NCBI RefSeq assembly: GCF_900112105.1 | Contig: NZ_FOKV01000001.1 | Location: forward strand, 558,001 to 622,000 | Direction of reading: 5' to 3' | From: Zunongwangia mangrovi | Lineage (GTDB): Bacteria; Bacteroidota; Bacteroidia; Flavobacteriales; Flavobacteriaceae | DNA length: 64,000 nucleotides | Part shown: one piece after another, positions 50,215-61,329 of the stretch | Position numbering within the stretch: position 1 is the first letter of the stretch | Layout of the letters: each line of letters begins with the position of its first letter | Position numbers and translations under genes: made by a program | The notes under the pieces: model-generated | What the model was told of the DNA's origin: nothing | What the model saw: the letters and a program-made list of their open reading frames with translations, nothing else | Databases searched by the model: none

Positions 50215-50242
50215 ACGCAACCTTTTTTGTATTTTGCATCTA
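50215..50242 (+). promoter_or_regulatory. ECF-type promoter upstream of the lipoprotein gene at 50262
   Basis: ACGCAACC (50215-50222), 16 bp, then TCTA (50239-50242). The same ACGCAACCTTT 11-mer heads the three lipoprotein genes at 58.4-60.2 kb. The layout matches ECF sigma promoters (-35 GxAAC, about 16-bp spacer, -10 TCTA). It starts 10 bp after the EnvC-like stop and ends 19 nt before the ATG. Confidence 0.75.
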
Positions 50243-50261
50243 GTAGATGTAACTAATCAAT

Positions 50262-50954
50262 ATGAAAGTAATATACTTTGCGACTATTGTCGTGCTATTT
50301 CTGTGTTTTTCTGCTTGCCACAAAGACGATGTTCTGGTCACCGAAGATAAAAGAATGGCTGTTTTTGCCACGCTTTTAGATTCTAATAATGTCGCTTTAC
50401 AAGATCTTGCAGTAAATGTAACCACTAAGGTTGGTGAAGAAAATAATGTTTTAGGAGCTTCTCATAGTAAAGCGCTTGGTAAGGTAGACTTTGTTTCTTT
50501 AGTAGCTTATAACCGTGGGATAGTTGTTAATTTTAATCCGCTTTCTTCAGGTGATCATAATCCAAATTTTATGTCTCTAAGTTATGTGGATCCAAGAGAG
50601 TTTATGGATAGGGAAGAAAGTGTAAACCTGGATCTGGTGAAGCTTAATCCCATTCAGGATGTAGATATTAGCATAGATAGATTACCTGAAACCGATAGTG
50701 TAGAATTCCGAATACAGTATTACAATACCACACAGTTTATAAGTTTGGATGAAGAAAACAATCCTATAGGAAAATATCAAAATACATCAAATACTTACGA
50801 AAGATTGGATGAAGAAACAGCCTCTTTTCAAAATTCATATCGTTTGCCTGTTGGATCACCTATTAAGATCTTATATACGGTAAACGATGAAGCTGAAAAA
50901 GACACAACAATTACTGTAAATTCAGCAAATAGCATTATTGATTTAGAATTTTAA
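50262..50954 (+). CDS. Lipoprotein under the ECF-type promoter
   Basis: 230 residues with a lipobox (CFSAC). The body is beta-rich with an LDSNNVALQDLAVNVTTKV segment resembling an Ig-like/transthyretin-like fold. I recognise no domain. It is not a sequence homologue of the trio at 58-60 kb but shares its ECF promoter motif. The gene ahead is EnvC-like, and a barrel protein follows at 51004. Confidence 0.75.
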   Translation: MKVIYFATIVVLFLCFSACHKDDVLVTEDKRMAVFATLLDSNNVALQDLAVNVTTKVGEENNVLGASHSKALGKVDFVSLVAYNRGIVVNFNPLSSGDHNPNFMSLSYVDPREFMDREESVNLDLVKLNPIQDVDISIDRLPETDSVEFRIQYYNTTQFISLDEENNPIGKYQNTSNTYERLDEETASFQNSYRLPVGSPIKILYTVNDEAEKDTTITVNSANSIIDLEF

Positions 50955-51003
50955 ATTGAAAATTATATCCCGATTTTATCGATTTTCAGCATAAATTTTT
51001 CAG

Positions 51004-51642
51004 ATGAAGAAATTATTACTTTTAGTCTTTATATTGAGTATTTCTGTAGGAAATGCACAAACTGAAATTATTCCAGAACCACATAAAAACTGGTATGAGC
51101 CTGAAGATCCAGAAACTGTATTTTTTGGCTTATCTTTCTATTTTCCCAATGGTATTGGGGACTCAAGTTTAGGAAATGATTATTCATTTGATGCGGGAAT
51201 TCAGTTTGAAGTAAATGTTTTTATCACTCCGCAGTTTGTTGCCGGCGTTTATGGAAAATGGCATGAAGGCGAAGTGACCAATATTGAAAAAATTGGAAAT
51301 ATAAGTGATAGCAATTTTAGCGAGTATGGGCTTAGTCTAGGTTATTATCAGGCAATTAATCGACAATTTAATTACATGATCACTGCGGGTATAGGTGCTG
51401 TTACTTTAAATAATACGGTGCCTTTTTCTCCAGATTCTTTTCGAGAGAATGGTACCAGTTATAAAGTTACAGGAGAATTAGGTTATCGTTTTAATCAAAC
51501 CATAGCAATTTTCGCTAAAGTCTCTCCATATTATTTAAATCTTGATATCGAGAATGCTGCTTATGATTCATATTTAAATAAGCATTTTCTGGTAGATGTT
51601 GGTTTTGGATTACGGGTGCATTTACACAATCCAAATGGTTAA
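51004..51642 (+). CDS. Outer-membrane beta-barrel protein
   Basis: 212 residues: signal peptide (about 1-18, VGNA), then alternating aromatic strands (FFGLSFYFPNGIG; SEYGLSLGYYQAIN; ITAGIGAVTLNN; FLVDVGFGLRVHL) typical of an eight-stranded barrel of the OmpW/OprF-like porin type. No other motif is seen. It follows the 50262 lipoprotein by 49 bp and could share its transcript. Confidence 0.78.
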   Translation: MKKLLLLVFILSISVGNAQTEIIPEPHKNWYEPEDPETVFFGLSFYFPNGIGDSSLGNDYSFDAGIQFEVNVFITPQFVAGVYGKWHEGEVTNIEKIGNISDSNFSEYGLSLGYYQAINRQFNYMITAGIGAVTLNNTVPFSPDSFRENGTSYKVTGELGYRFNQTIAIFAKVSPYYLNLDIENAAYDSYLNKHFLVDVGFGLRVHLHNPNG

Positions 51643-51664
51643 TTTTCAATAAAAGGAAAGAGAA

Positions 51665-52177
51665 TTATTTAGTAAATAAAGCTTTAAGTTCGGTAGCATC
51701 GTCCGGTTGCATTTTTCCGGCAAGCACAAGGCTAAGTTGCTTTCTTCTCAAGGCTGCGGCAAAACGATCTTTTTCCAGATCTGTTTCTGGCTCTAATGGA
51801 GGAACAGGAACTGGCGCCCCGGTTTCGTCTACAGCTACAAAGGTGTAAATCGCTTCGTTTGCTTTACTTCTAAGACCACTTTCGCGATCTTCTACCCATA
51901 CATCTATAAAGATCTCCATAGACGATTTAAACGCGCGAGAAACAGCTGCTTCAACCGTTACAACACTTCCTAGCGGAATTGCTTTATTAAAGGCAACGTG
52001 ATTAACAGAGGCAGTAACTACGATACGTCGACTATGTCTTCTGGCAGCAATACTGGCAGCACGATCCATACGAGCTAACAATTCGCCTCCAAATAAATTA
52101 TTTAGGGGATTGGTCTCGCTTGGTAAAACAAGATCGGTTAATGTAGTTCTAGAATCTTTTGGGTACTTAGAATTCAT
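51665..52177 (-). CDS. Acyl-CoA thioesterase (hot-dog fold, YciA-like)
   Basis: 170 residues. Hot-dog motifs: LVLPSETNPLNNLFGGELLARMD (the N/D active region in the family), HVAFNKAIPLGSVV, and SRAFKSSMEIFIDVWVED. It hydrolyses fatty acyl-CoA to free acid. The ATG at 52177 is preferred over an in-frame TTG at 52186. A palindrome covers the region just before the start (52180-52196). Confidence 0.88.
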   Translation of the reverse strand: MNSKYPKDSRTTLTDLVLPSETNPLNNLFGGELLARMDRAASIAARRHSRRIVVTASVNHVAFNKAIPLGSVVTVEAAVSRAFKSSMEIFIDVWVEDRESGLRSKANEAIYTFVAVDETGAPVPVPPLEPETDLEKDRFAAALRRKQLSLVLAGKMQPDDATELKALFTK

Positions 52178-52179
52178 AT

Positions 52180-52196
52180 TTGCCAATTTTTGGCAA
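52180..52196 (-). promoter_or_regulatory. Palindrome at the thioesterase start
   Basis: TTGCCAA, 3-nt loop, TTGGCAA in front of the ATG at 52177. It could be an operator for a fatty-acid regulator or an mRNA hairpin covering the start. Confidence 0.35.
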
Positions 52197-52234
52197 TAAT
52201 AGTGAGCTTTTAGCTAAATATCACTAAAAAAAGA

Positions 52235-53170
52235 TTAAAGTTCCTGTACCAGTAGCCAGGCCGCTTTGTCTTCTCGCTTTAATCTATTTAAAGCATTTAC
52301 CGCATCACGCCTGGTTTTGTGGCTGGAAAATACTACTTGGTGAAGACCATATTTGTTGGCACCTATTAGTCGGGCTTTGTAACCTTCCTTCTTAAGTTCT
52401 TCTACTTTTTTCTCGGCATTTTCTTCCACTCTAAACGCACCTGCAACAAGGTGAAAATTACCAGATTGTTTTTCTACGTTAAAAGTAATGGCCGGTAGCG
52501 GATTATCGATCACAAAAGTAGCTTCCTGAATTTGTTGTTGTAACTGGTTTTCAGCTTCCTGTTGTTCAGCAATATTATGTTCAGCAACCTGATTGCTATA
52601 AATATTTAAACCAGCAACACCAGATAAACCAATAGCAAGAATTCCTACTGCAGCATATTTAAGGAATGCGGCTTTGCGACTTCTACGTTCAGGAGTGAAA
52701 TGAATTGGCGCTTTTTCTTCTATTTTCTGAACCTGAGATTTGTAAACTTCACGCTGAATTTTTGCTGAATGAACCACATCAAGTCCAAAAGAATCAGCCA
52801 GGTAATTCACTTTGTTGAATGGCTCGAATTGAAGCGTATAATCTTCAGAAACAGTAAATTCACCAACATTAGCGATTTCAGCTTTATCATTTTCTTTTAA
52901 AGAATTTTCCAGCTGATGTACAAAATCGGCGATCTTATTTAATGCAGTAGTGTAGTTTATACTTTCAGCATCTGCGATGTAATTGGCTAACAATCCGTCG
53001 TTTTTAACTAATTGACGGTTAAAAGATACAGTCTTTTTTGGGGGGTAAAGATTATTGGTTTCTGCATCGATAAAAGCAGATTCTCTTTGAGATAGAAATG
53101 CACCAAATCCCGGTACGATAACGCATTCGTAGCGGTAAAGTAAATCCTGTATGTAGTTAGCTATTTTCAT
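52235..53170 (-). CDS. HU-like domain, transmembrane helix and SPOR domain protein
   Basis: 311 residues. The N-terminal region (about 1-130) resembles the HU/IHF-like CCDC81-type domain of Bacteroidetes, beginning MKIANYIQDLLYRYECVIVP. One transmembrane helix follows (170-190, KYAAVGILAIGLSGVAGLNIY), then a Gln/Glu-rich linker and a C-terminal SPOR domain (237-310, GNFHLVAGAFRVEENAEKKV). SPOR binds denuded septal glycan, and the HU-like part may touch DNA or protein in the cytoplasm. It may link nucleoid to division site. Confidence 0.85.
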   Translation of the reverse strand: MKIANYIQDLLYRYECVIVPGFGAFLSQRESAFIDAETNNLYPPKKTVSFNRQLVKNDGLLANYIADAESINYTTALNKIADFVHQLENSLKENDKAEIANVGEFTVSEDYTLQFEPFNKVNYLADSFGLDVVHSAKIQREVYKSQVQKIEEKAPIHFTPERRSRKAAFLKYAAVGILAIGLSGVAGLNIYSNQVAEHNIAEQQEAENQLQQQIQEATFVIDNPLPAITFNVEKQSGNFHLVAGAFRVEENAEKKVEELKKEGYKARLIGANKYGLHQVVFSSHKTRRDAVNALNRLKREDKAAWLLVQEL

Positions 53171-53175
53171 AATTG

Positions 53176-53183
53176 CAAAAATA
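53176..53183 (-). promoter_or_regulatory. Promoter -7 element for the HU-SPOR gene, nearly leaderless
   Basis: The minus strand reads TATTTTTG, ending 5 nt before the ATG at 53170, so the leader is at most a few bases. Confidence 0.5.
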
Positions 53184-53267
53184 AGACGAATGTGAAGTAT
53201 ATAAAAATAGCGAAATAATTTTTATTAACAAATCTTTTTTTGCGTAATTTTAGTCGAAAGCGGTGGA

Positions 53268-54368
53268 ATGAATAGTAGTGATCTAAGATATGTGCTGGCT
53301 TTGCAAAGAGCTTCTAATCTGGGGGATAGAACAGCGAAGAAACTAATAGCAAGATTAGGCAGTGCGGAAGCAATTTTTAAAGAAAAGCGACAAAATTTAT
53401 TGAAAATCGAAGGTATAGGCGAGCTTAAACTAAAAGGCTTACTGGATCCTGCGAACTTTGAAGCTGCAGAAAAAGAGCTCGAATTTATCAAAAATGAGCA
53501 ATTAGAAACCCATTATTTTTTAGATGAAAATTATCCTGAAAAATTAAAACATTGCCACGATTCGCCCATTTTGCTGTTTTCTAAAGGAACTATTAAACTT
53601 CAAAATCGCCGAATTATAAGTATTGTTGGAACCCGAAAGATCACAAGTACCGGGAAAGCTTTTGTAGAAGAATTTATTGAAGAATTGAGTCCGCTAGATC
53701 CTGTAATTGTTTCTGGTTTTGCGTACGGAGTAGATATCGCGGCCCATCGGGCTGCTATAACTCATAATCTGCAAACGATTGGATGTTTGGCGCATGGTTT
53801 AGATCAAATCTATCCAAAAGTGCATGCAAAATATGTTGATGAAGTTTTAAAAAATGGTGGCTTTTTTAGCGATTTTTGGAGTAGCGATAAATTTGATCGC
53901 AATAACTTTTTAAAACGAAACCGAATTATCGCTGGTTTAAGTGAAGCTACTGTAGTGATCGAAAGTGCAGAGAAGGGCGGAAGTTTAGTAACTGCAGATA
54001 TTGCAAATTCTTATAATCGCGAAGTTTTTGCGGTGCCGGGAAGGCCGGGTGATAAATATAGCAAAGGTTGTAACGGACTTATTAAATCGAACAATGCCCA
54101 TTTATTAAGCAGTGCAGCAGATTTGGTGTATATGTTGGGTTGGAAGCTCGATGAAGAAATTAAACCTGTGCAGCAACAGTTGTTTATCGATCTGGATGAA
54201 GAAGAGCAACTTATTTACGACCAGCTAAAAGAAAAAGGGAAATCACAATTAGACACGATAGCGCTTTATTGCAATTTCCCAACTTTTAAAACCGCTTCAA
54301 TTTTATTGAATATGGAACTTAAAGGCGTAATTAGGCCTTTGCCCGGTAAATTATTTGAAGCAATTTAG
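53268..54368 (+). CDS. dprA: DNA-protecting protein DprA
   Basis: 366 residues. DprA loads RecA on incoming single-stranded DNA in natural transformation. An N-terminal helix-hairpin-helix (LLKIEGIGELKLKGL) is followed by the Rossmann core with IVGTRKITSTGKAF, VSGFAYGVDIAAHRAAI, LKRNRIIAGLSEATVVIESAEKGGSLVTADIA and VFAVPGRPGD. A C-terminal winged helix is at about 310-366. It converges on trpS with 7 bp between stops. Confidence 0.96.
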   Translation: MNSSDLRYVLALQRASNLGDRTAKKLIARLGSAEAIFKEKRQNLLKIEGIGELKLKGLLDPANFEAAEKELEFIKNEQLETHYFLDENYPEKLKHCHDSPILLFSKGTIKLQNRRIISIVGTRKITSTGKAFVEEFIEELSPLDPVIVSGFAYGVDIAAHRAAITHNLQTIGCLAHGLDQIYPKVHAKYVDEVLKNGGFFSDFWSSDKFDRNNFLKRNRIIAGLSEATVVIESAEKGGSLVTADIANSYNREVFAVPGRPGDKYSKGCNGLIKSNNAHLLSSAADLVYMLGWKLDEEIKPVQQQLFIDLDEEEQLIYDQLKEKGKSQLDTIALYCNFPTFKTASILLNMELKGVIRPLPGKLFEAI

Positions 54369-54375
54369 ATCGTAA

Positions 54376-55344
54376 TTAATATCCTAATTTTTCACGAACA
54401 CGCTTTAAAACATCATTCGCTACAGCAGTTGCTTTTTCTTTCCCAACCGCTAAAGCTTTATCTACTTCTTCAAGATTGTTGATGTAGTATTCGTATTTCT
54501 CACGTGGCTCGGCAAAAATTTCTTTTACTAATTCAAAAAGTGCCTGTTTTGCGTGCCCGTAACCAAATCCGCCAGCTTCGTATTTTTGGCGCAGATCTGC
54601 TGTTTGAGCCTCAGATCCTAATAATTTATAAATATTGAAAACATTACAGGTATCTGGGTTTTTAGGCTCTTCAAGCGGAGTGCTATCGGTTTGGATACCC
54701 ATAATTTGTTTTCTCAGTTTTTTATCGGTCTGAAAAATATTAATGGTGTTTTCTTTCGATTTACTCATTTTAGAACCATCTGTCCCGGGAACATACATGG
54801 TGTTTTCTTCAACCTTCGATTCTGGTATTACAAAGGTTTCGCCCATTTTTGTATGAAAACGAGAAGCGACATCCCTGGTAATTTCTAAATGTTGTAACTG
54901 GTCTTTCCCAACAGGAACAATTTCAGCATCATATAAAAGGATATCTGCTGCCATAAGCATTGGATAGGTAAAAAGTCCGGCATTTACATCTTCTAAACGA
55001 TCTGCTTTATCTTTAAATGAATGTGCTAACGTAAGTCTTTGATACGGGAAAAAGCAGCTTAAGTACCAGGTAAGTTCACTGGTTTGTGGGATATCACTTT
55101 GTCTGTAAAAAACGGTTTTTTCGATATCAAGACCGCAGGCAAGCCAGGTTGCCGCAACAGAGTAGGTGTTATTTCTTAAAGTTTCTGCATCTTTAATTTG
55201 GGTTAAAGAGTGCATATCTGCTATAAAAATAAAAGAATCATTCTCTGGGCTATTCGCCATTTTAATAGCAGGCATAATTGCCCCCAGTAAATTTCCTAAA
55301 TGAGGAGTTCCTGTGCTTTGTACTCCCGTTAGTATTCTAGACAT
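54376..55344 (-). CDS. trpS: Tryptophanyl-tRNA synthetase
   Basis: 322 residues, normal for bacterial TrpRS. It charges tRNA-Trp with tryptophan. The HIGH-equivalent is TGTPHLGN (11-18), and the KMSKS motif is at 192-196 in TDGSKMSKSKENT. The ADMHSLTQI and PVGKDQLQHLEITRD segments complete the active site. Divergent from plsC with two promoter elements between them. Confidence 0.97.
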   Translation of the reverse strand: MSRILTGVQSTGTPHLGNLLGAIMPAIKMANSPENDSFIFIADMHSLTQIKDAETLRNNTYSVAATWLACGLDIEKTVFYRQSDIPQTSELTWYLSCFFPYQRLTLAHSFKDKADRLEDVNAGLFTYPMLMAADILLYDAEIVPVGKDQLQHLEITRDVASRFHTKMGETFVIPESKVEENTMYVPGTDGSKMSKSKENTINIFQTDKKLRKQIMGIQTDSTPLEEPKNPDTCNVFNIYKLLGSEAQTADLRQKYEAGGFGYGHAKQALFELVKEIFAEPREKYEYYINNLEEVDKALAVGKEKATAVANDVLKRVREKLGY

Positions 55345-55364
55345 GTAGTTATTAAATTTTTATA

Positions 55365-55372
55365 CAAAGGTA
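55365..55372 (-). promoter_or_regulatory. Promoter -7 element for trpS
   Basis: The minus strand reads TACCTTTG (TANNTTTG), ending 20 nt before the trpS ATG. Confidence 0.6.
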
Positions 55373-55405
55373 CTTTTTTTGTGGAATTCACTTGATTGTA
55401 TTTAC

Positions 55406-55413
55406 TACTTTTG
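55406..55413 (+). promoter_or_regulatory. Promoter -7 element for plsC, nearly leaderless
   Basis: TACTTTTG fits TANNTTTG, ending 6 nt before the ATG at 55420. It rules out the upstream in-frame TTG at 55396 as a start. Confidence 0.55.
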
Positions 55414-55419
55414 GAATCT

Positions 55420-56160
55420 ATGCGATTTTTTAAAAATATTGCTATTGCGGTATGGAGAATATGGTTCTACGTTTTGCTCGTGGTACCAATAATCTTTATG
55501 TTGCCTATCCTCATCGTTTTCACCTCATCAGAGCGATTTTATCCTCAGTTTTTCTTTTGTGCCAGGATGTGGGGGAAATTTATCATTTTTGGAATGGGTT
55601 TTTACCGCCGTACGCAAGGTAGCCATAAGCTGGATAAAGATGGTAGTTATATGTTTGTAGCCAATCATTATTCGATGTTGGATATCATGTTAATGTTGGC
55701 AACCGTTAACCACCCTTTTGTGTTTGTTGGGAAAAAAGAACTGGCTAAAATTCCCATTTTCGGGTTTTTCTATCGCAAAACCTGCATTTTGGTAGATCGT
55801 AAAAGTCAGCAAAGTCGCCAGGCAGTTTTTAATGAAGCTGAGAGACGATTAAAACAGGGAAATAGTATTTGTATTTTTCCTGAAGGAGGTGTTCCCGATG
55901 ACGAAAACATCATTTTAGACGAATTTAAAGAAGGTGCTTTTAAATTGGCCATAGATCACCAAATTCCAATTGCACCATTAACTTTTCACGATACCAAAAA
56001 GCGTTTTTCATATACTTTTTTATCAGGTAGTCCCGGGAAATTACGTGTTACCATTCATGATTTTATTCCAACCAAAGGTAAAACGCAGGACGATCGTAAA
56101 GAGATTAAAGAAAAGACCAGGGAAATTATCTTTAATGAGCTAAAAAATCCTAGTCTGTAA
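55420..56160 (+). CDS. plsC: 1-acyl-sn-glycerol-3-phosphate acyltransferase
   Basis: 246 residues with an N-terminal membrane helix (about 8-35). It acylates lysophosphatidate at position 2 in phospholipid synthesis. The HX4D motif is ANHYSMLD, and the FPEGGVPDD segment is the acyl-acceptor FPEG box. The KTCILVDRKSQQSRQ middle motif is present. Typical length. The ATG at 55420 fits the -7 element location. Confidence 0.93.
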   Translation: MRFFKNIAIAVWRIWFYVLLVVPIIFMLPILIVFTSSERFYPQFFFCARMWGKFIIFGMGFYRRTQGSHKLDKDGSYMFVANHYSMLDIMLMLATVNHPFVFVGKKELAKIPIFGFFYRKTCILVDRKSQQSRQAVFNEAERRLKQGNSICIFPEGGVPDDENIILDEFKEGAFKLAIDHQIPIAPLTFHDTKKRFSYTFLSGSPGKLRVTIHDFIPTKGKTQDDRKEIKEKTREIIFNELKNPSL

Positions 56161-56191
56161 TAGCCAATTTCAGCATTTAGTTCGCTTGAAT

Positions 56192-56219
56192 TTTTCGAAT
56201 ATCAAATTAAAATTCGAAA
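56192..56219. terminator. Weak hairpin between plsC and the anti-sigma/OMP gene
   Basis: TTTCGAAT (56193-56200) pairs with ATTCGAAA (56212-56219) between two convergent genes. The stem is AT-rich, so this is tentative. Confidence 0.35.
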
Positions 56220-57703
56220 CTAAAACCTGTATAAATTCCGAAGAAATAAGGATTAACGCCGTTAGTGTTGCTAAAGCTATTTAGTTGATATTTAAAGGTA
56301 GGTTCTAAATTAAGTTTAAACTTATCGTTTAACTGGTAATCTACACCCATCCCTATATTCGTAGTAAAACTTAGGCTTTCCAGGTTATTAGATTCTCCAA
56401 GTTCGATGCTGCCGTTTTGGCCATTTACGCTAACCGAATTTTCATCCAAAAACAAACTACTCGCACCACCAATTACTTTTAGCCCAACTTTTTTGTCGAT
56501 CAAACTGTATTCAATTTCTACCGGAACTTCGATATATCCAAAATTCTGACTCAAAGAACCATTTTCTCTGGGCATATTAATCATAGATGAAAAACCATTT
56601 TCCAAATTATCATAATATTCATCGGCTGGAGAGTTAGCAGCGTTATTATTTGCGATTCTAATATTTTCGCCTCCGGTATCGTAATTGATACTAGACAAAT
56701 TATTGGAAGCTACCGCATAATTGTAAGCAATATCCTGAGTTTGATAATTCATGCTCACTTTGTTGATCCCAGAGCGAATTTTTATTTTTTCTGAAACTGC
56801 ATAAGCTACCTTAACTCCGTAAGCCATAGTCACTTCACTATTGGTTTGATTACCGGCAAACGAAGGATCTAAAGGATTGCCGCTACCCAGATTGTCATAG
56901 TATACCGGTGCTGCAAAAGGTGCAATACTCACTTTTCCTGCTTTACCGGAAGCAATTTTCACGTCTTCTGAAGCGTTTTCCTTGTTCTTGTCTGCTTCTA
57001 AAATAGCTACTGCATTTTCGTAATCTTTGTCGGCTTGCGATTGCGTAGAATCTACTGCAGCAATTTGTGATTCCTCTGTTGTTTTAACTGAAGTTTTTTC
57101 TGAAGCGATTTCGTCTGCGGTATCTCGATTTTCGATGATTTCAGCATCGTTTTTTTGATCGATACCTGCCAATTCATGTTCGTTGTTTGATTGATTAGAT
57201 GCAATATTCGATGAATTGCTGTTCGTTTTTTCTAAAGTTGATTTTTCTGAAGATGTATTTGTCTCTGAGGCACCCGTGGTATTCTGACTAGCCAAAGTGC
57301 CAGAGTTAGTTGAAACGTCCTCATTTGTATTGGCTTCTTCGGCTTTTTCGCCAGTATTCTTAGAGGATTCCGTGATTTCTTCTAATGTTTTATTAGCGTT
57401 ATTTAAAGGAGAATCCTTAGGTATTTCTATTGTAGGAAGTTGAGATTCTTCAATATCGAATGTGATTTGGGGTTCAGTAAAATTTGCCGGGCTGTTTTGT
57501 AAAAAATATACACTGGCTAAGATTATAGCCAAAACAGCTGCAACACCACCCAGTTTGTTCCAAAGTGGTAAGATTACAGGTTTTTTGTTTTGTTTTTCCT
57601 GTAATTTCTCTGCGATATTTTTCCAGACGTCCTCATTTGGAGTTTGCTCAAAATCTTTGAACTTCTCCTGAAAAAGTCGATCTATATTCTTTTTCTCTTT
57701 CAT
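56207..57703 (-). CDS. Putative anti-sigma factor fused to an outer-membrane beta-barrel
   Basis: 498 residues. Residues 1-50 are a charged helical segment (DRLFQEKFKDFEQTPNEDVW) that fits a short anti-sigma domain. One membrane helix (51-69, LGGVAAVLAIILASVYFLQ) follows. Residues 72-250 are low-complexity, rich in Asn, Ser, Thr and Glu, and look disordered. The C-terminal part (257-498) has strands and an end GFSFEF that fit an outer-membrane beta-barrel. It overlaps the ECF sigma gene by 4 bp and should be its regulator. The trans-envelope reading is inference from composition; the barrel could also stay in the periplasm. Confidence 0.7.
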   Translation of the reverse strand: MKEKKNIDRLFQEKFKDFEQTPNEDVWKNIAEKLQEKQNKKPVILPLWNKLGGVAAVLAIILASVYFLQNSPANFTEPQITFDIEESQLPTIEIPKDSPLNNANKTLEEITESSKNTGEKAEEANTNEDVSTNSGTLASQNTTGASETNTSSEKSTLEKTNSNSSNIASNQSNNEHELAGIDQKNDAEIIENRDTADEIASEKTSVKTTEESQIAAVDSTQSQADKDYENAVAILEADKNKENASEDVKIASGKAGKVSIAPFAAPVYYDNLGSGNPLDPSFAGNQTNSEVTMAYGVKVAYAVSEKIKIRSGINKVSMNYQTQDIAYNYAVASNNLSSINYDTGGENIRIANNNAANSPADEYYDNLENGFSSMINMPRENGSLSQNFGYIEVPVEIEYSLIDKKVGLKVIGGASSLFLDENSVSVNGQNGSIELGESNNLESLSFTTNIGMGVDYQLNDKFKLNLEPTFKYQLNSFSNTNGVNPYFFGIYTGFSFEF

Positions 57704-58242
57704 AGGGTTTTTGCAGAAGAATTATAGTGTTTACTTTCTATATTTTCTTTCAATAAATTGCGCGCTCTTGATAAATTAGATTTCGAAGTTCCTTCTGATA
57801 TTTGTAGAATTTCGGCAATTTCTTTATGAGAATAGCCATCTAAAACATACAAATTGAAAACTTCGCGATAGCGTTGTGGCAATTGTTGTACGATCTTAAG
57901 AAGAAAATCCAGTGGTAATGAAGATTCTTCATATTCTACTGTTGTTTCTTCTATTTGATCTTCGTTCGTTATACTATATAATTTTTCTTTTCTGTATTTC
58001 TGTAATGTGGTATTGATCATTATTCGCTTCATCCAACCTTCAAAAGACCCCTGATGTTTGTACTGCCCAATTTTGTCGAAAATGGTCAAAAAGCCATCCT
58101 GCAGGTTATCTTCGGCCTGCGCATAGCTATCAGAATATTTAAGGCAAAGGCCAAACATTTTACCGGCATACAAGCGGTAAAGTTCTTCCTGTGCTTTTAT
58201 GTCATTCTGTTTACATCTTTTTATGAGCTTCTCTAGCGTCAA
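57700..58242 (-). CDS. ECF-type RNA polymerase sigma factor
   Basis: 180 residues. Region 2 (about 20-85) contains LYRLYAGKMFGLCLKYSDSY, DNLQDGFLTIF and GSFEGWMKRIMINTTL, with the basic lip at its end. Region 4 (about 118-170) contains LPQRYREVFNLYVLDGYSHKEIAEILQISEGTSKSNLSRAR. No C-terminal extension is present. The start is TTG 58242: the frame has a stop just upstream and no ATG. A 3-codon out-of-frame ATG ORF (58250) ends in a TGA overlapping that TTG. The anti-sigma gene is next on the strand. Confidence 0.9.
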   Translation of the reverse strand: MTLEKLIKRCKQNDIKAQEELYRLYAGKMFGLCLKYSDSYAQAEDNLQDGFLTIFDKIGQYKHQGSFEGWMKRIMINTTLQKYRKEKLYSITNEDQIEETTVEYEESSLPLDFLLKIVQQLPQRYREVFNLYVLDGYSHKEIAEILQISEGTSKSNLSRARNLLKENIESKHYNSSAKTL

Positions 58243-58302
58243 AAGATCATGTTTGGTTTAGTTGGTCTTACTCGATAATCGTAATGAGTTATTGTTTTTT
58301 GA

Positions 58303-58341
58303 TCCAACAGGTCCCGAAGTATATCGGGACATCATTGGATA
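58303..58341 (-). terminator. Inverted repeat between the lipoprotein trio and the sigma gene
   Basis: GTCCCGA, loop AGTATA, TCGGGAC (58311-58330) with outer arms ATCCAA/TTGGAT. It may end the transcript of the lipoprotein gene at 58402 and so separate it from the sigma operon. The T run on the minus strand is weak. Confidence 0.55.
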
Positions 58342-58401
58342 CTTGCTAACAATAAAAACAATTTTCTAATATTTACCTCTCGGTATCAATCTTTAAGAGA
58401 T

Positions 58402-58857
58402 TTACTCTTGTGTTGGTTCTTCGGTTTCATCTGGTTCACCAACCGGGATAGTAATATCTATATATTGAGCTTCGTTATTTTCTTCGCCAGTCCAAAAATG
58501 AAAAACATATTCGGTATTTTCATCCCCGGTAATTACAATATCTCTTAAGTCTCTTTCCTGTTCTGTTGCATCATCACAGTTCGTTCTATCCAGATATTTT
58601 GCAGTTACAGCAAACACGTAGACGTGGCGTACATTACCATTAATTTCCCGGTCAATATCAAAACCATAAAATTGTTCACATCCATCATCTGGTATGTAAC
58701 TTATGGGAAAACTATAAACTTCGCCGGTTTCAAAATATTCGGGCATTTGGGCATCTGTAATTTCAGCAAGACTAAACGATAGAGACGCACCGTCATCGTC
58801 TAAAGAGCATCCGGTTAGGGTACAGATACATGCTAAAATTAATAATATTCTTTTCAT
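58402..58857 (-). CDS. Tandem lipoprotein paralogue 1
   Basis: 151 residues: signal peptide with lipobox (CTLTGC), then the shared core AEITDAQMPEYFETGEVYSF, a first conserved cysteine in DDGCEQFYGFD, a second in RTNCDDA, and the terminal motif VGEPDETEEP. It is homologous to the next two genes. Mature protein is very acidic. The two shared cysteines could form a disulphide in the periplasm or at the surface. No known domain is recognised. It has its own ECF-type promoter. Confidence 0.78.
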   Translation of the reverse strand: MKRILLILACICTLTGCSLDDDGASLSFSLAEITDAQMPEYFETGEVYSFPISYIPDDGCEQFYGFDIDREINGNVRHVYVFAVTAKYLDRTNCDDATEQERDLRDIVITGDENTEYVFHFWTGEENNEAQYIDITIPVGEPDETEEPTQE

Positions 58858-58891
58858 TAGGCTATAAAATATTTTAGTGTTTTGTATTCTC

Positions 58892-58920
58892 TAGATACAC
58901 TAAATACCAAAAGGTTGCGT
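58892..58920 (-). promoter_or_regulatory. ECF-type promoter of lipoprotein 1
   Basis: On the minus strand, ACGCAACC (58920-58913), 17 bp, then TCTAGA (TCTA at 58895-58892). The TTTT after the -35-like box is shared with the other three sites. Confidence 0.8.
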
Positions 58921-58930
58921 GCCCGAAATA

Positions 58931-58964
58931 AAAAAGGCTGAAATTTTAAAATTTCAGCCTTTTT
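58931..58964 (-). terminator. Palindromic terminator after lipoprotein 2
   Basis: A perfect 34-bp palindrome, arms AAAAAGGCTGAAATTTT and AAAATTTCAGCCTTTTT. It sits 28 bp after the stop of the gene at 58992 and 11 bp upstream of the promoter of gene 58402. The core matches the terminator at 59530-59559. Confidence 0.85.
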
Positions 58965-58991
58965 AGAAAAAACTACGGTATTTCCATTAGC

Positions 58992-59465
58992 TTATTCTGT
59001 AGGTTCTTCGTTTTCATCTGGTTCACCAACTAAAACATCTATAGTTAAATAGTCTGGGGTACCATCTGCATTTCTTCCGCTTAGAAAATTAAACCGGATA
59101 GTATCATATTGATCTGAGGTTATTGCAAAATCTTCGGCCCAATTCTCTGTTTCGGTTATACCGTCGTCGGTACAATTTGCGGTGTTGCTTGGATCAAAAG
59201 AGACGATAGCATTCACATAAAATTCTAATATCGAATCATCTTCTGGATCTTGTCTTGAACTATATTCGAAATTATGGAAGCTATTACAATCACTTCCAAG
59301 ATCGTAAGTGATATCAATTTCGTATTCCTGGTCTATAACAAAATATTCTGGCAAGGTAGCATCTAAAATTCCTACTGGGCTATAAGAAACGTTTGGTTCA
59401 TCATCTCCTATACTACAGGAAAACAGACCAAGTGTTAGGATTAGAATTAGGGTAATTTTCTTCAT
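58992..59465 (-). CDS. Tandem lipoprotein paralogue 2
   Basis: 157 residues with lipobox (LGLFSC). Shared features: GILDATLPEYFVIDQEYEID, Cys in SDCNSFHNFEY, Cys in ANCTDDG, ending VGEPDENEEPTE. Acidic and predicted to be beta-rich. Homologous to its neighbours, so local duplication is likely. Expression should follow the ECF-type promoter at 59489-59517. Confidence 0.78.
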   Translation of the reverse strand: MKKITLILILTLGLFSCSIGDDEPNVSYSPVGILDATLPEYFVIDQEYEIDITYDLGSDCNSFHNFEYSSRQDPEDDSILEFYVNAIVSFDPSNTANCTDDGITETENWAEDFAITSDQYDTIRFNFLSGRNADGTPDYLTIDVLVGEPDENEEPTE

Positions 59466-59488
59466 TTTATTAATGGTTTATTTGTTAT

Positions 59489-59517
59489 TAGATGGGCAAC
59501 TTTATAAAAGGTTGCGT
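59489..59517 (-). promoter_or_regulatory. ECF-type promoter of lipoprotein 2
   Basis: On the minus strand, ACGCAACC (59517-59510), 17 bp, then TCTAAT (TCTA at 59492-59489). Confidence 0.8.
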
Positions 59518-59529
59518 TTTTAAAATTAA

Positions 59530-59559
59530 AAAAGCTGAAATTTTAAAATTTCAGCTTTT
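59530..59559 (-). terminator. Palindromic terminator upstream of lipoprotein 2
   Basis: Perfect 30-bp palindrome with arms AAAAGCTGAAATTTT and AAAATTTCAGCTTTT. It follows the paralogue 3 unit but is 154 bp from its stop, with the dispersed repeat copy B in between. Confidence 0.8.
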
Positions 59560-59617
59560 GGGCTAGGTTGTTTCAAATTTACTTGAAAATTGTTAAAAAC
59601 ACTTACTGGTTTTTATT

Positions 59618-59714
59618 GGCACCGCCAAAGGGTATAATATCCAGAGTCATGCCTCGAAATTAAAAATTTGTTTCCAACGAATGCCTTGAGGGCTTTTCTC
59701 GAGGTAGTTTACTT
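59618..59714 (+). repeat. Dispersed ~97-bp repeat, copy B
   Basis: Begins GGCACCGCCAAAGGGTATAA and matches 342-438 at 77 of 97 positions. It lies between lipoprotein 3 and its terminator and overlaps the last two bases of that stop codon. CCTCGA near the middle and TCGAGG near the end form an inverted pair about 40 bp apart, suggesting possible secondary structure. Confidence 0.7.
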
Positions 59715-60192
59715 ATTCAGCCGGAGTTTCTTCTTCCGGTGCGCCAACCGGTACATCCACAATTAAAAATTCTGCTTCGTCATCTTCGTTTGCACCAGTT
59801 AAAAAGCGAAAACGTACTGTTTCGTACTGGAAGTCTGATGATATTCCAAAATCCTCAAAAAGAGTTTTTGTTTCAGTTAATTCACCTTCTTCGGTACATT
59901 CGGTCACATTAGGGTCGTAAGTCGTTAAAACCCGAATATCATAAATTAAAACGCTTTCATCATCTTCATCTTCATGATATACGCCGTCAAAGGAATAGAA
60001 TTCATTACAGGCATCTGGTAATTCATAGGTAACTGTAATATCGTACTCTTCTTCAGGTTCAAAAAAATCTGGTAAGGTTTCTCCGGTTATTTCTGCAAGT
60101 TGATACGCGATACTTGGGCCATCATCATCATTACAACTTACAAAGCTTGCAAGTGTTAGGGCTAAGATTAAAATAAAACTGATTTTTTTCAT
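59713..60192 (-). CDS. Tandem lipoprotein paralogue 3
   Basis: 159 residues with lipobox (SFVSC). Core shared with the other two: AEITGETLPDFFEPEEEYDI, Cys in DACNEFYSFDG, Cys in TECTEEG, ending VGAPEEETPAE. Strongly acidic. The downstream repeat copy B adjoins its stop codon. The promoter at 60218-60246 lies just after the recA terminator. Confidence 0.78.
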   Translation of the reverse strand: MKKISFILILALTLASFVSCNDDDGPSIAYQLAEITGETLPDFFEPEEEYDITVTYELPDACNEFYSFDGVYHEDEDDESVLIYDIRVLTTYDPNVTECTEEGELTETKTLFEDFGISSDFQYETVRFRFLTGANEDDEAEFLIVDVPVGAPEEETPAE

Positions 60193-60217
60193 TTTGCTTT
60201 TGGGTTTTGTTTTAATC

Positions 60218-60246
60218 TAGATGAATTTAATCTGCAAAGGTTGCGT
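60218..60246 (-). promoter_or_regulatory. ECF-type promoter of lipoprotein 3
   Basis: On the minus strand, ACGCAACC (60246-60239), 17 bp, then TCTAGA (TCTA at 60221-60218), 25 nt before the ATG at 60192. Confidence 0.8.
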
Positions 60247-60309: not shown

Positions 60310-61329
60310 TTAAGCCTCTTCTTTTGCTAATTTAATAGCATCTTTAATCTTAACTTCTAATTCGTCCATTAGATCTGGATTATCTTTTAAGATGGTTTTT
60401 ACGGCGTCACGACCCTGGCCAAGTTTGGTATCTTCGTAACTAAACCACGAACCACTTTTCTTAATGATCTCGTAGTCTACACCTATATCGATAATCTCTC
60501 CAATTTTAGAAACCCCTTCACCGTACATAATATCAAATTCGGCTGTTTTAAATGGCGGAGCTACTTTGTTCTTCACGATCTTTACTCGGGTTTTATTACC
60601 CATCACTTCACTACTACTGTTTTTAATTTGTGTAGATCTTCTAATATCTAAACGTACAGAAGCATAGAATTTAAGCGCGTTACCACCGGTAGTCGTTTCT
60701 GGGTTTCCAAACATTACCCCAATCTTTTCACGAAGCTGGTTAATGAAAATTACCGTACAGTTAGTTTTGCTAATTGTTGAGGTTAATTTTCTAAGTGCCT
60801 GAGACATTAATCGAGCATGAAGCCCCATTTTAGAGTCTCCCATTTCTCCTTCGATCTCACTTTTTGGCGTTAAAGCCGCAACCGAGTCGATTACAATAAT
60901 GTCTATCGCTCCAGATCTAATTAGGTTATCGGCAATTTCTAAAGCCTGCTCACCATTATCTGGCTGAGAAATGATTAGGTTCTCGATATCGATCCCAAGT
61001 TTTTCAGCGTAAAAACGATCAAAAGCATGTTCAGCATCAATAAAAGCGGCAATACCACCATCTTTTTGAGCTTCAGCAATAGCATGAAGCGTCAAGGTTG
61101 TTTTACCAGAAGATTCTGGTCCATAGATCTCAACAATTCTTCCTCTTGGATAACCACCTACGCCTAAAGCAAGGTCTAAACCTAAAGAGCCGGTAGAAAT
61201 AGAAGGGATGTTTTCAACAGCCTGATCTCCCATTTTCATTACCGTCCCTTTACCATAGGTTTTATCCATTTTGTCAAGGGTAAGTTTAAGAGCTTTTAGT
61301 TTTGCGTCTTTTTCTTTATCGTTACTCAT
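60310..61329 (-). CDS. recA: Recombinase RecA
   Basis: 339 residues. Coats single-stranded DNA, pairs homologous strands and triggers repair responses. Walker A GPESSGKT is at 70-77, Walker B is [12 protein letters not shown], and the L1/L2 region includes [20 protein letters not shown]. The C-terminus is acidic. A real Shine-Dalgarno-like AGGAG lies about 8 nt before the start, unusual in this window. No LexA box was recognised upstream. Confidence 0.98.

Follow-up and report, generated by a model that had tools for sequence, protein, structure and literature searches.

The 64-kb window of the Zunongwangia mangrovi genome analysed here (the whole stretch from position 558,001 to 622,000 of contig NZ_FOKV01000001.1; all positions below are counted within it) raises the question which protein reads a short DNA element that recurs in front of four of its lipoprotein genes. 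The element, ACGCAACC-N16/17-TCTA, resembles a promoter for an extracytoplasmic function (ECF) sigma factor, and a gene for such a factor lies nearby at 57700-58242. We consider it very likely that the element, in its full form ACGCAACC(T/A)TTT-N12-(C/T)ATCTA, is a promoter read by this sigma factor and its orthologues in Flavobacteriaceae, a family with marine and soil members, and that the sigma factor is controlled by a partner protein of the Das/Dma type. This type is described in the excerpts of PMC13088901 for Bacteroides thetaiotaomicron, where the ECF21 sigma factor Das1 is paired with the dual membrane-spanning anti-sigma protein Dma1, as is Das2 with Dma2.

All four copies of the box claimed in an earlier note on this DNA were found in place, with the spacer N16 occurring once and N17 three times. 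They are the only matches of ACGCAACC-N15..18-TCTA in the window (exactly four, compared with 0.03 expected; none of 100 shuffles reached four), and the 8-mer ACGCAACC itself occurs four times, always at the boxes, compared with 0.68 expected occurrences. The short distance to lipoprotein starts was also borne out: TCTA and ATG are separated by 19, 34, 23 and 25 bp, and all four proteins carry a lipoprotein signal peptide by pattern. The box stood as it had been read, but its extent did not, as the -10 side is longer, (C/T)ATCTA, and the -35 side reaches ACGCAACC(T/A)TTT.

A scan of the whole genome (4.13 Mb) with the N15-18 pattern yielded 14 matches, compared with two for the reversed pattern. 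The spacer was N17 in 13 of them, the site at 50215 being the sole N16 example. With the spacing fixed and TTT and ATCTA added, 11 perfect sites, four sites with one mismatch and five with two mismatches were obtained. No own-genome site with a spacing one base longer was found at 0-1 mismatch, and at 2-3 mismatches this longer spacing gave 50 matches against 66 in its control. Uniting the 14 matches with the fixed-spacing sites at 0-2 mismatches resulted in 22 pooled sites, 16 of which precede lipoprotein open reading frames (ORFs). The remaining pooled sites precede a secreted protein (L007), no ORF (L014) or, in the case of four of the five two-mismatch sites (L078-L081), no lipoprotein, and these four were judged to be chance matches. 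At two sites, L002 and L012, the lipoprotein ORF behind the box runs into an early stop after about 45-55 amino acids (aa); these genes may have decayed or may encode genuinely tiny lipoproteins.

The consensus of 17 sites, in which G3 to C7 and A25 to T28 are invariant, equals the full form given above and is partly circular, since the sites were chosen by similarity to the same pattern. An AAC-type -35 element at a near-fixed distance from the -10 element, as known for ECF promoters, was found at these sites. As a bipartite motif of 29 bp, the box would also be compatible with a site for a conventional transcription factor and might then be an operator at promoters of the primary sigma factor. 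We regard this as highly improbable, because the spacing of 17 bp is nearly fixed, the upstream part contains AAC, and the box is asymmetric, oriented with transcription and located upstream of a sigma gene. Moreover, the ATG follows the box within 6-50 bp at 16 of 18 own-genome sites (the exceptions are L003, whose gene probably starts at TTG, and L014, which has no ORF), and the primary-sigma box TAnnTTTG is absent between box and ATG at all 18 sites, two matches being located inside ORFs. In a comparison set of 48 window ORFs of at least 150 aa, TAnnTTTG was found within 80 bp upstream of 13.

The product of the gene at 57700-58242 matched Sigma70_r2 and Sigma70_r4_2 (PF04542 with 43.5 bits and PF08281 with 67.8 bits, both above cut-off) and is an ECF sigma factor as previously claimed. 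Its physical link to the box was analysed in two sets of loci. Among the 30 best-scoring sigma loci of the family, which include the own genome and are not a random draw, a box with up to two mismatches was located within 1.5 kb upstream of the sigma gene in 27, compared with one of 600 dinucleotide shuffles; allowing three mismatches, the numbers were 29 of 30 and 14 of 600. The second set comprised 20 regions of relatives, each fetched for a site that it contains; 19 surround recA, with the site on either side of this gene. In all 19 regions, recA adjoins the sigma operon, a box with at most two mismatches and always N17 is located directly behind recA on the operon side, and a large membrane protein is encoded. 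The sigma gene was placed just before the latter in 18 regions (10 by label and eight by coordinates; G072 is the exception). Between box and sigma gene, 12 of the 19 regions have labelled homologues of the window lipoproteins, and the box stands directly ahead of the sigma gene, with no lipoprotein found between them, at L122, L123, L126, L127, L134 and L137.

Five genomes (G127, G322, G460, G494 and G510) encode a sigma factor of 45-49% identity, with no recA in the fetched flanks, and keep the order box, lipoprotein, sigma, anti-sigma; G576, with a sigma factor of 54% identity, has recA upstream as usual. Box and sigma operon remain together in these genomes, in which no recA is seen next to them. 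The diverged sigma gene of G127 lies 1.4 kb behind a perfect box. One in-frame TGA was observed in this gene (G127:C21:63062-63598, L203), which may reflect either decay of this copy or an error in sequencing.

Box and sigma factor also occur together in the family. A sigma orthologue (E<=1e-45, a threshold fixed after the scores were known) is present in 241 of 299 family genomes, and 182 contain an exact match to the 14-base box core. The box was found in 178 of the 241 genomes with and in 4 of the 58 genomes without the sigma factor (Fisher p 9e-22, not corrected for phylogeny); after moving G127 to the sigma-positive group, the numbers are 179 of 242 and 3 of 57. These counts ignore phylogeny throughout, and many of the sigma-negative genomes are small. 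Among genomes of at least 2.5 Mb, counted by hand, the box is present in 162 of 220 genomes with and 3 of 15 without sigma (p 5e-5), or in 163 of 221 and 2 of 14 with G127 moved (p 1e-5).

Of 296 Bacteroidota genomes sampled, 17 contain the exact 17-base pattern; these belong without exception to the 30 genomes of the own family, and none of the 266 genomes outside it has a match. A scan for ACGCAACCTTTT-N12-ATCTA over 84,980 species returned at least 119 stretches, 80 of which were listed, and a search of plasmids gave no match. Among the 80 matches listed, 77 have titles which we take to be flavobacterial by the genus named; the other three are two metagenome-assembled genomes (MAGs) titled 'Bacteroidetes bacterium' and one 'Algicola' MAG.

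Besides the late choice of threshold and the missing phylogenetic correction, several observations weigh against the pairing of box and sigma factor. The exact 14-base pattern is lacking in 63 of the 242 sigma-positive genomes, five of which are among the 30 sigma loci and have relaxed boxes with 1-3 mismatches. Three sigma-negative genomes (G016, G158 and G262) have one box match each. Within the own genome, the fixed-spacing pattern at up to three mismatches is not above its control (68 against 73 matches), so that weak sites cannot be told from noise and only sites with 0-2 mismatches were read. A good box no more than 250 bp from the first ATG was not found for any of the 24 own-genome PF08281 genes, among them the window sigma gene (the best has three mismatches over 13 positions, and several first ATGs fall inside the gene); the three-mismatch case at L053 is probably located inside the gene. 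For autoregulation in the window, transcription from the neighbouring lipoprotein gene (lipoprotein 1 in the table below) would have to continue through a gap of 160 bp that contains an inverted repeat. Finally, the genus of the 'Algicola' record (L288) is placed under Gammaproteobacteria at NCBI; this record is probably a misnamed MAG, because its lipoprotein resembles that of the Psychroserpens record L296.

Some of these observations would fit an explanation in which the boxes are ECF promoters read by other or several ECF sigma factors of overlapping specificity, the recA-linked factor being only one target or reader. The own genome offers candidates among its 24 PF08281 genes above cut-off, not all of which need be ECFs; two of the three genomes with a box and without the sigma orthologue, G158 and G262, carry an ECF of the L048 type; and overlapping ECF regulons are discussed for Flavobacterium psychrophilum in the excerpts of PMC9723704. 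The L048 type, another widespread ECF of the own genome present in 204 of the 299 genomes, served as the single control. A box was found in 39 of 48 genomes with only the window sigma factor and in 2 of 10 with only the control, compared with 140 of 194 genomes with both and 1 of 47 with neither, and within sigma-positive genomes the control ECF adds nothing (140 of 194 against 39 of 48, p 0.27). These counts indicate that the control ECF does not explain the co-occurrence. In addition, no other PF08281 gene of the own genome was seen with a box, and in genus g127 box and sigma operon are linked away from recA. We therefore consider the reading by other ECF sigma factors unlikely. The pairing of the box with the nearby sigma gene, which the earlier note had offered as a guess, is strongly supported at the level of sequence by synteny, co-occurrence, linkage away from recA and restriction to the family.

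The protein encoded directly after the sigma factor was aligned with 24 orthologues for a structure model. The model contains N-terminal helices (residues 7-35), a transmembrane (TM) helix (46-70), a disordered linker (71-253) and a C-terminal barrel of eight strands (258-496). Its mean predicted local distance difference test score (pLDDT) is 62, with values of mostly 76-94 in the barrel blocks and low confidence in the N-terminal part and the linker. The barrel matches OmpA-type barrels (Foldseek, E 1e-6). A cytoplasmic end, a TM helix, a disordered periplasmic linker and an outer-membrane barrel are accordingly all present in prediction, the gene is adjacent to that of its ECF sigma factor, and the protein looks like a dual membrane-spanning anti-sigma (Dma) architecture. 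Further marks of this class are an N-terminal domain that binds and inhibits the sigma factor and an increased production of outer membrane vesicles upon loss of the protein.

The products of the genes behind the box share a feature next to the lipid anchor. Positions +2 to +6 hold two or more acidic residues in 14 of the 16 own-genome box lipoproteins, which corresponds to the acidic cluster of Bacteroidota lipoprotein export signals (LES; QKDDE, SDDDD and SDDFE in the excerpts of PMC5080379), and in one of seven other own-genome lipoproteins sampled (the raw comparison, 3 of 9, held two box genes counted again). As these clusters resemble the export signals, most box lipoproteins are probably surface-exposed. 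Homology of the recA-linked lipoproteins to NigD was not upheld: lipoprotein 3 scored 21.6 bits against NigD1/NigD2 (NF051862, cut-off 60), only one of 32 members matched this family at E<=0.01, again below cut-off, and the resemblance lies mainly in the signal peptide. A fold search of the lipoprotein returned generic immunoglobulin-like and similar sandwiches, none at E<=0.001.

A second lipoprotein type with a YGSKACGGP / FGSKPCGGP-like stretch was observed at L082 (own genome), L105, L180 and L198. In the own genome as well as in G260 and G130, its gene follows the box, and in G383 (L198) it is located upstream of the sigma gene. The lipoproteins behind L082, L105 and L180, which belong to three genera, are alike by eye and have the box in common. 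Such lipoproteins, unlike those of the recA-linked family, and the micro-ORFs described below are difficult to reconcile with the idea that the sigma factor controls only its own recA-linked operon, the boxes elsewhere being leftovers of promoters that were copied together with lipoprotein genes during their duplication. In favour of this idea, the tandem lipoproteins 1-3 of the window are paralogues, and the palindromes between their genes are copies; we nevertheless give it hardly any credence.

What the box precedes in relatives was read from the 80 matches listed, which contain 90 sites, 87 of them readable and three too near the locus end. Lipoproteins, called by a simple pattern, follow 41 of the 87 sites and other secreted proteins five, while 17 sites have no clear ORF. 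Another 19 precede micro-ORFs, namely 10 of a CKADGG class (shorter variants, e.g. of 28 aa, included), five basic ones ending KIIHR and four with a TM segment, and the last five belong to recA-divergent units before trhO in which no micro-ORF was found. Four sites were reclassed by eye for these counts: L357 (minus strand) went from lipoprotein to CKADGG peptide, L323, at first without an ORF, was counted as a lipoprotein whose gene does not start with ATG, and both L287 and L327 were added to the TM micro-ORFs. Four relatives (G265, G130, G260 and G207), chosen among the listed matches of the search over the 299 family genomes, were covered with all their sites, and L105 was added. Three of the resulting 22 sites lack the leading AC and lie in other sequence with no matching gene; the other 19 precede 13 lipoproteins, the CKADGG peptide and a TM micro-ORF twice each, and an ORF-less recA-divergent unit twice. 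The predicted target set of the box is family-wide and, beyond the lipoproteins of the earlier note, includes micro-ORFs and ORF-less units.

Two arrangements recur among these small units. Paired boxes 176-179 bp apart were observed in Flavobacterium and Flavobacterium-like genomes (L227, L229, L231, L326 and L328), the first preceding a short unit that lacks an ORF and carries a terminator-like repeat, the second preceding a micro-ORF for 34-35 aa that is basic and has the ending KIIHR. We judge genus g127 to be Flavobacterium because its KIIHR micro-ORFs are identical to those in named Flavobacterium records. In several genera, a 28-aa micro-ORF with a single TM segment and the ending FSVNK(K/R)T(D/E)P is located behind the box (L173, L191, L291 and L363), followed at L173 by a second similar ORF.

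Many relatives carry, in the recA-trhO interval, a box which points away from recA and would drive a short, terminator-ended unit. A profile of seven peptides matched in 69 of the 299 genomes at E<=0.01, the weaker matches being partly due to chance. The 30 best-scoring loci (L247-L276, not a random draw) all have an unannotated ORF of 30 aa ending C(K/R)(A/T/S)DGG (e.g. L252:1501-1590, minus strand), with N22, C25, D28, G29 and G30 invariant. All 30 ORFs are preceded by a box at a distance of 54-159 bp, which is perfect in 29 cases. A stem over the last codons and the stop, followed by a terminator, is conserved in the 27 loci folded, and 11 of the 23 predicted pairs are changed at both positions, nine of these 11 being located in the terminator. 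A lipobox is doubtful, as N is invariant at -3 and position -1 is occupied by N in 16 of the 30 peptides, S in 13 and C in one. The profile search did not find the peptide in the own genome, and there was no match in NCBIfam for three peptides, in Pfam for seven, or in Rfam at the gathering threshold for the recA regions of 10 relatives. A unit of this kind without the peptide was observed at L098, L125, L140, L175 and L189, where a leader resembling GGGAAATTTTGCTATGAAA persists; its persistence without the peptide ORF suggests that the RNA itself matters. One can guess that the recA-divergent unit encodes a peptide signal or a minimal lipopeptide, or that it yields a dual-function RNA. More speculatively, and in our view possible rather than probable, the sigma factor might have a dual output in which surface lipoproteins are accompanied by tiny genes as dedicated effectors, i.e. 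a secreted or lipid-linked peptide signal and/or small RNAs of the envelope, which respond to the dual-membrane sensor by adjusting the surface. We know of no peptide or RNA arm of an envelope sigma response in Bacteroidota.

For the pairing of box, sigma factor and partner protein, we consider the following mechanism the most likely. The sigma factor would be held by the cytoplasmic anti-sigma end of the protein encoded directly after it. The barrel in the outer membrane would sense a change of the outer membrane, the surface or the envelope, and the periplasmic tether would relay it to the cytoplasmic end. Once freed, the sigma factor would bind the box, as we infer from the DNA, and transcribe its own operon along with a group of lipoprotein genes, most of them of the surface type; in many relatives, its transcripts would also include short units near recA and elsewhere with micro-ORFs or no ORF. 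Sensing, sigma release, surface display and effects on vesicles are what we infer by analogy with the findings in Bacteroides. The system is of interest as a probable transenvelope sensor tied to surface-type lipoproteins: according to the excerpts of PMC13088901, such lipoproteins are the main vesicle cargo in Bacteroides, and very little is known about the regulation of vesicle production. The promoter code in addition exposes micro-genes below the usual annotation size.

Features of the 64-kb window that belong to the box system or adjoin it
Feature	Position	Strand	Remarks
Promoter box N16, ACGCAACCTTTTTTGTATTTTGCATCTA	50215..50242	+	precedes lipoprotein 50262-50954
Lipoprotein, 230 aa, CHKDDV after lipobox	50262..50954	+	no Pfam or NCBIfam family matched
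Dma-type dual membrane-spanning anti-sigma protein (predicted), 498 aa	56207..57703	-	alignment, structure model, Foldseek
ECF sigma factor, 180 aa	57700..58242	-	TTG start as listed, exact start uncertain
Lipoprotein 1, CSLDDDG, recA-linked family A3	58402..58857	-	
Promoter box N17 for lipoprotein 1 (presumably also sigma and anti-sigma)	58892..58920	-	
Terminator-like palindrome separating lipoproteins 2 and 1	58930..58966		by eye
Lipoprotein 2, CSIGDDE, paralogue	58992..59465	-	
Promoter box N17 for lipoprotein 2	59489..59517	-	
Terminator-like palindrome separating lipoproteins 3 and 2	59530..59559		near copy of the element at 58930; by eye
Lipoprotein 3, CNDDDGP, paralogue	59713..60192	-	beta sandwich predicted
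Promoter box N17 for lipoprotein 3	60218..60246	-	directly after terminator-like hairpin behind recA
recA	60310..61329	-	not itself behind a box

Sequence comparison places the tandem lipoproteins 1-3 as paralogues in a single recA-linked family, lipoprotein 3 being 35 and 44% identical to lipoproteins 1 and 2, respectively. The two palindromes between them are near-identical, with the core GCTGAAATTTTAAAATTTCAGC, and are likely terminators copied along during the tandem duplication of the genes. A nested inverted repeat around GTCCCGAAGTATATCGGGAC was seen by eye in the gap between lipoprotein 1 and the sigma gene (58280-58370) and could limit read-through from the former to the latter.

Sigma-E of Escherichia coli is an envelope-linked ECF sigma factor that also drives short RNAs. 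Its anti-sigma protein, box and RNAs are unrelated to those of the window system, for which an RNA function is a guess. The ECF-type promoters termed SM6 of F. psychrophilum belong, according to the excerpts of PMC9723704, to a set from the same family that includes an ECF/anti-sigma pair; they differ by a conserved CGT in the -10 element and by genes of the type IX secretion system, compared with TCTA and lipoproteins here. Proteins with LES share with the box lipoproteins the acidic residues shortly after the lipid cysteine, but LES is a sorting signal, and shared transcription by one sigma factor was not met in the excerpts of PMC5080379. Two genomes of family f11 have a lipoprotein gene of the NigD1/2 family beside an ECF sigma gene whose product is 37-40% identical to the window sigma factor, and the gene after it looks like its anti-sigma; no ACGCAACC box is visible by eye in the intergenic region. 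Profile A2 gave no match among the ORFs of the f11 loci, where the anti-sigma ORF is cut by the locus end. Neither the promoter code (searched by the motif letters GCAACC, TCTA and ACGCAACC) nor the layer of micro-genes was met in the open-licence literature of PubMed Central (PMC). The closest likeness is that to Das/Dma, in which an ECF sigma factor is likewise followed by a protein with a cytoplasmic end, a TM helix, a disordered linker and an outer-membrane barrel (here predicted), with a linked lipoprotein gene; a broad target set of lipoproteins and micro-ORFs was not met for the Bacteroides system in the excerpts of PMC13088901. Anti-sigma proteins of the Dma type were discovered only recently; in the present case, a promoter code legible in the DNA of a whole family allows the target set to be listed genome by genome. 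Judged from the DNA, this is very probably a flavobacterial system of the Das/Dma type, family-wide and with a promoter code that can be read directly.

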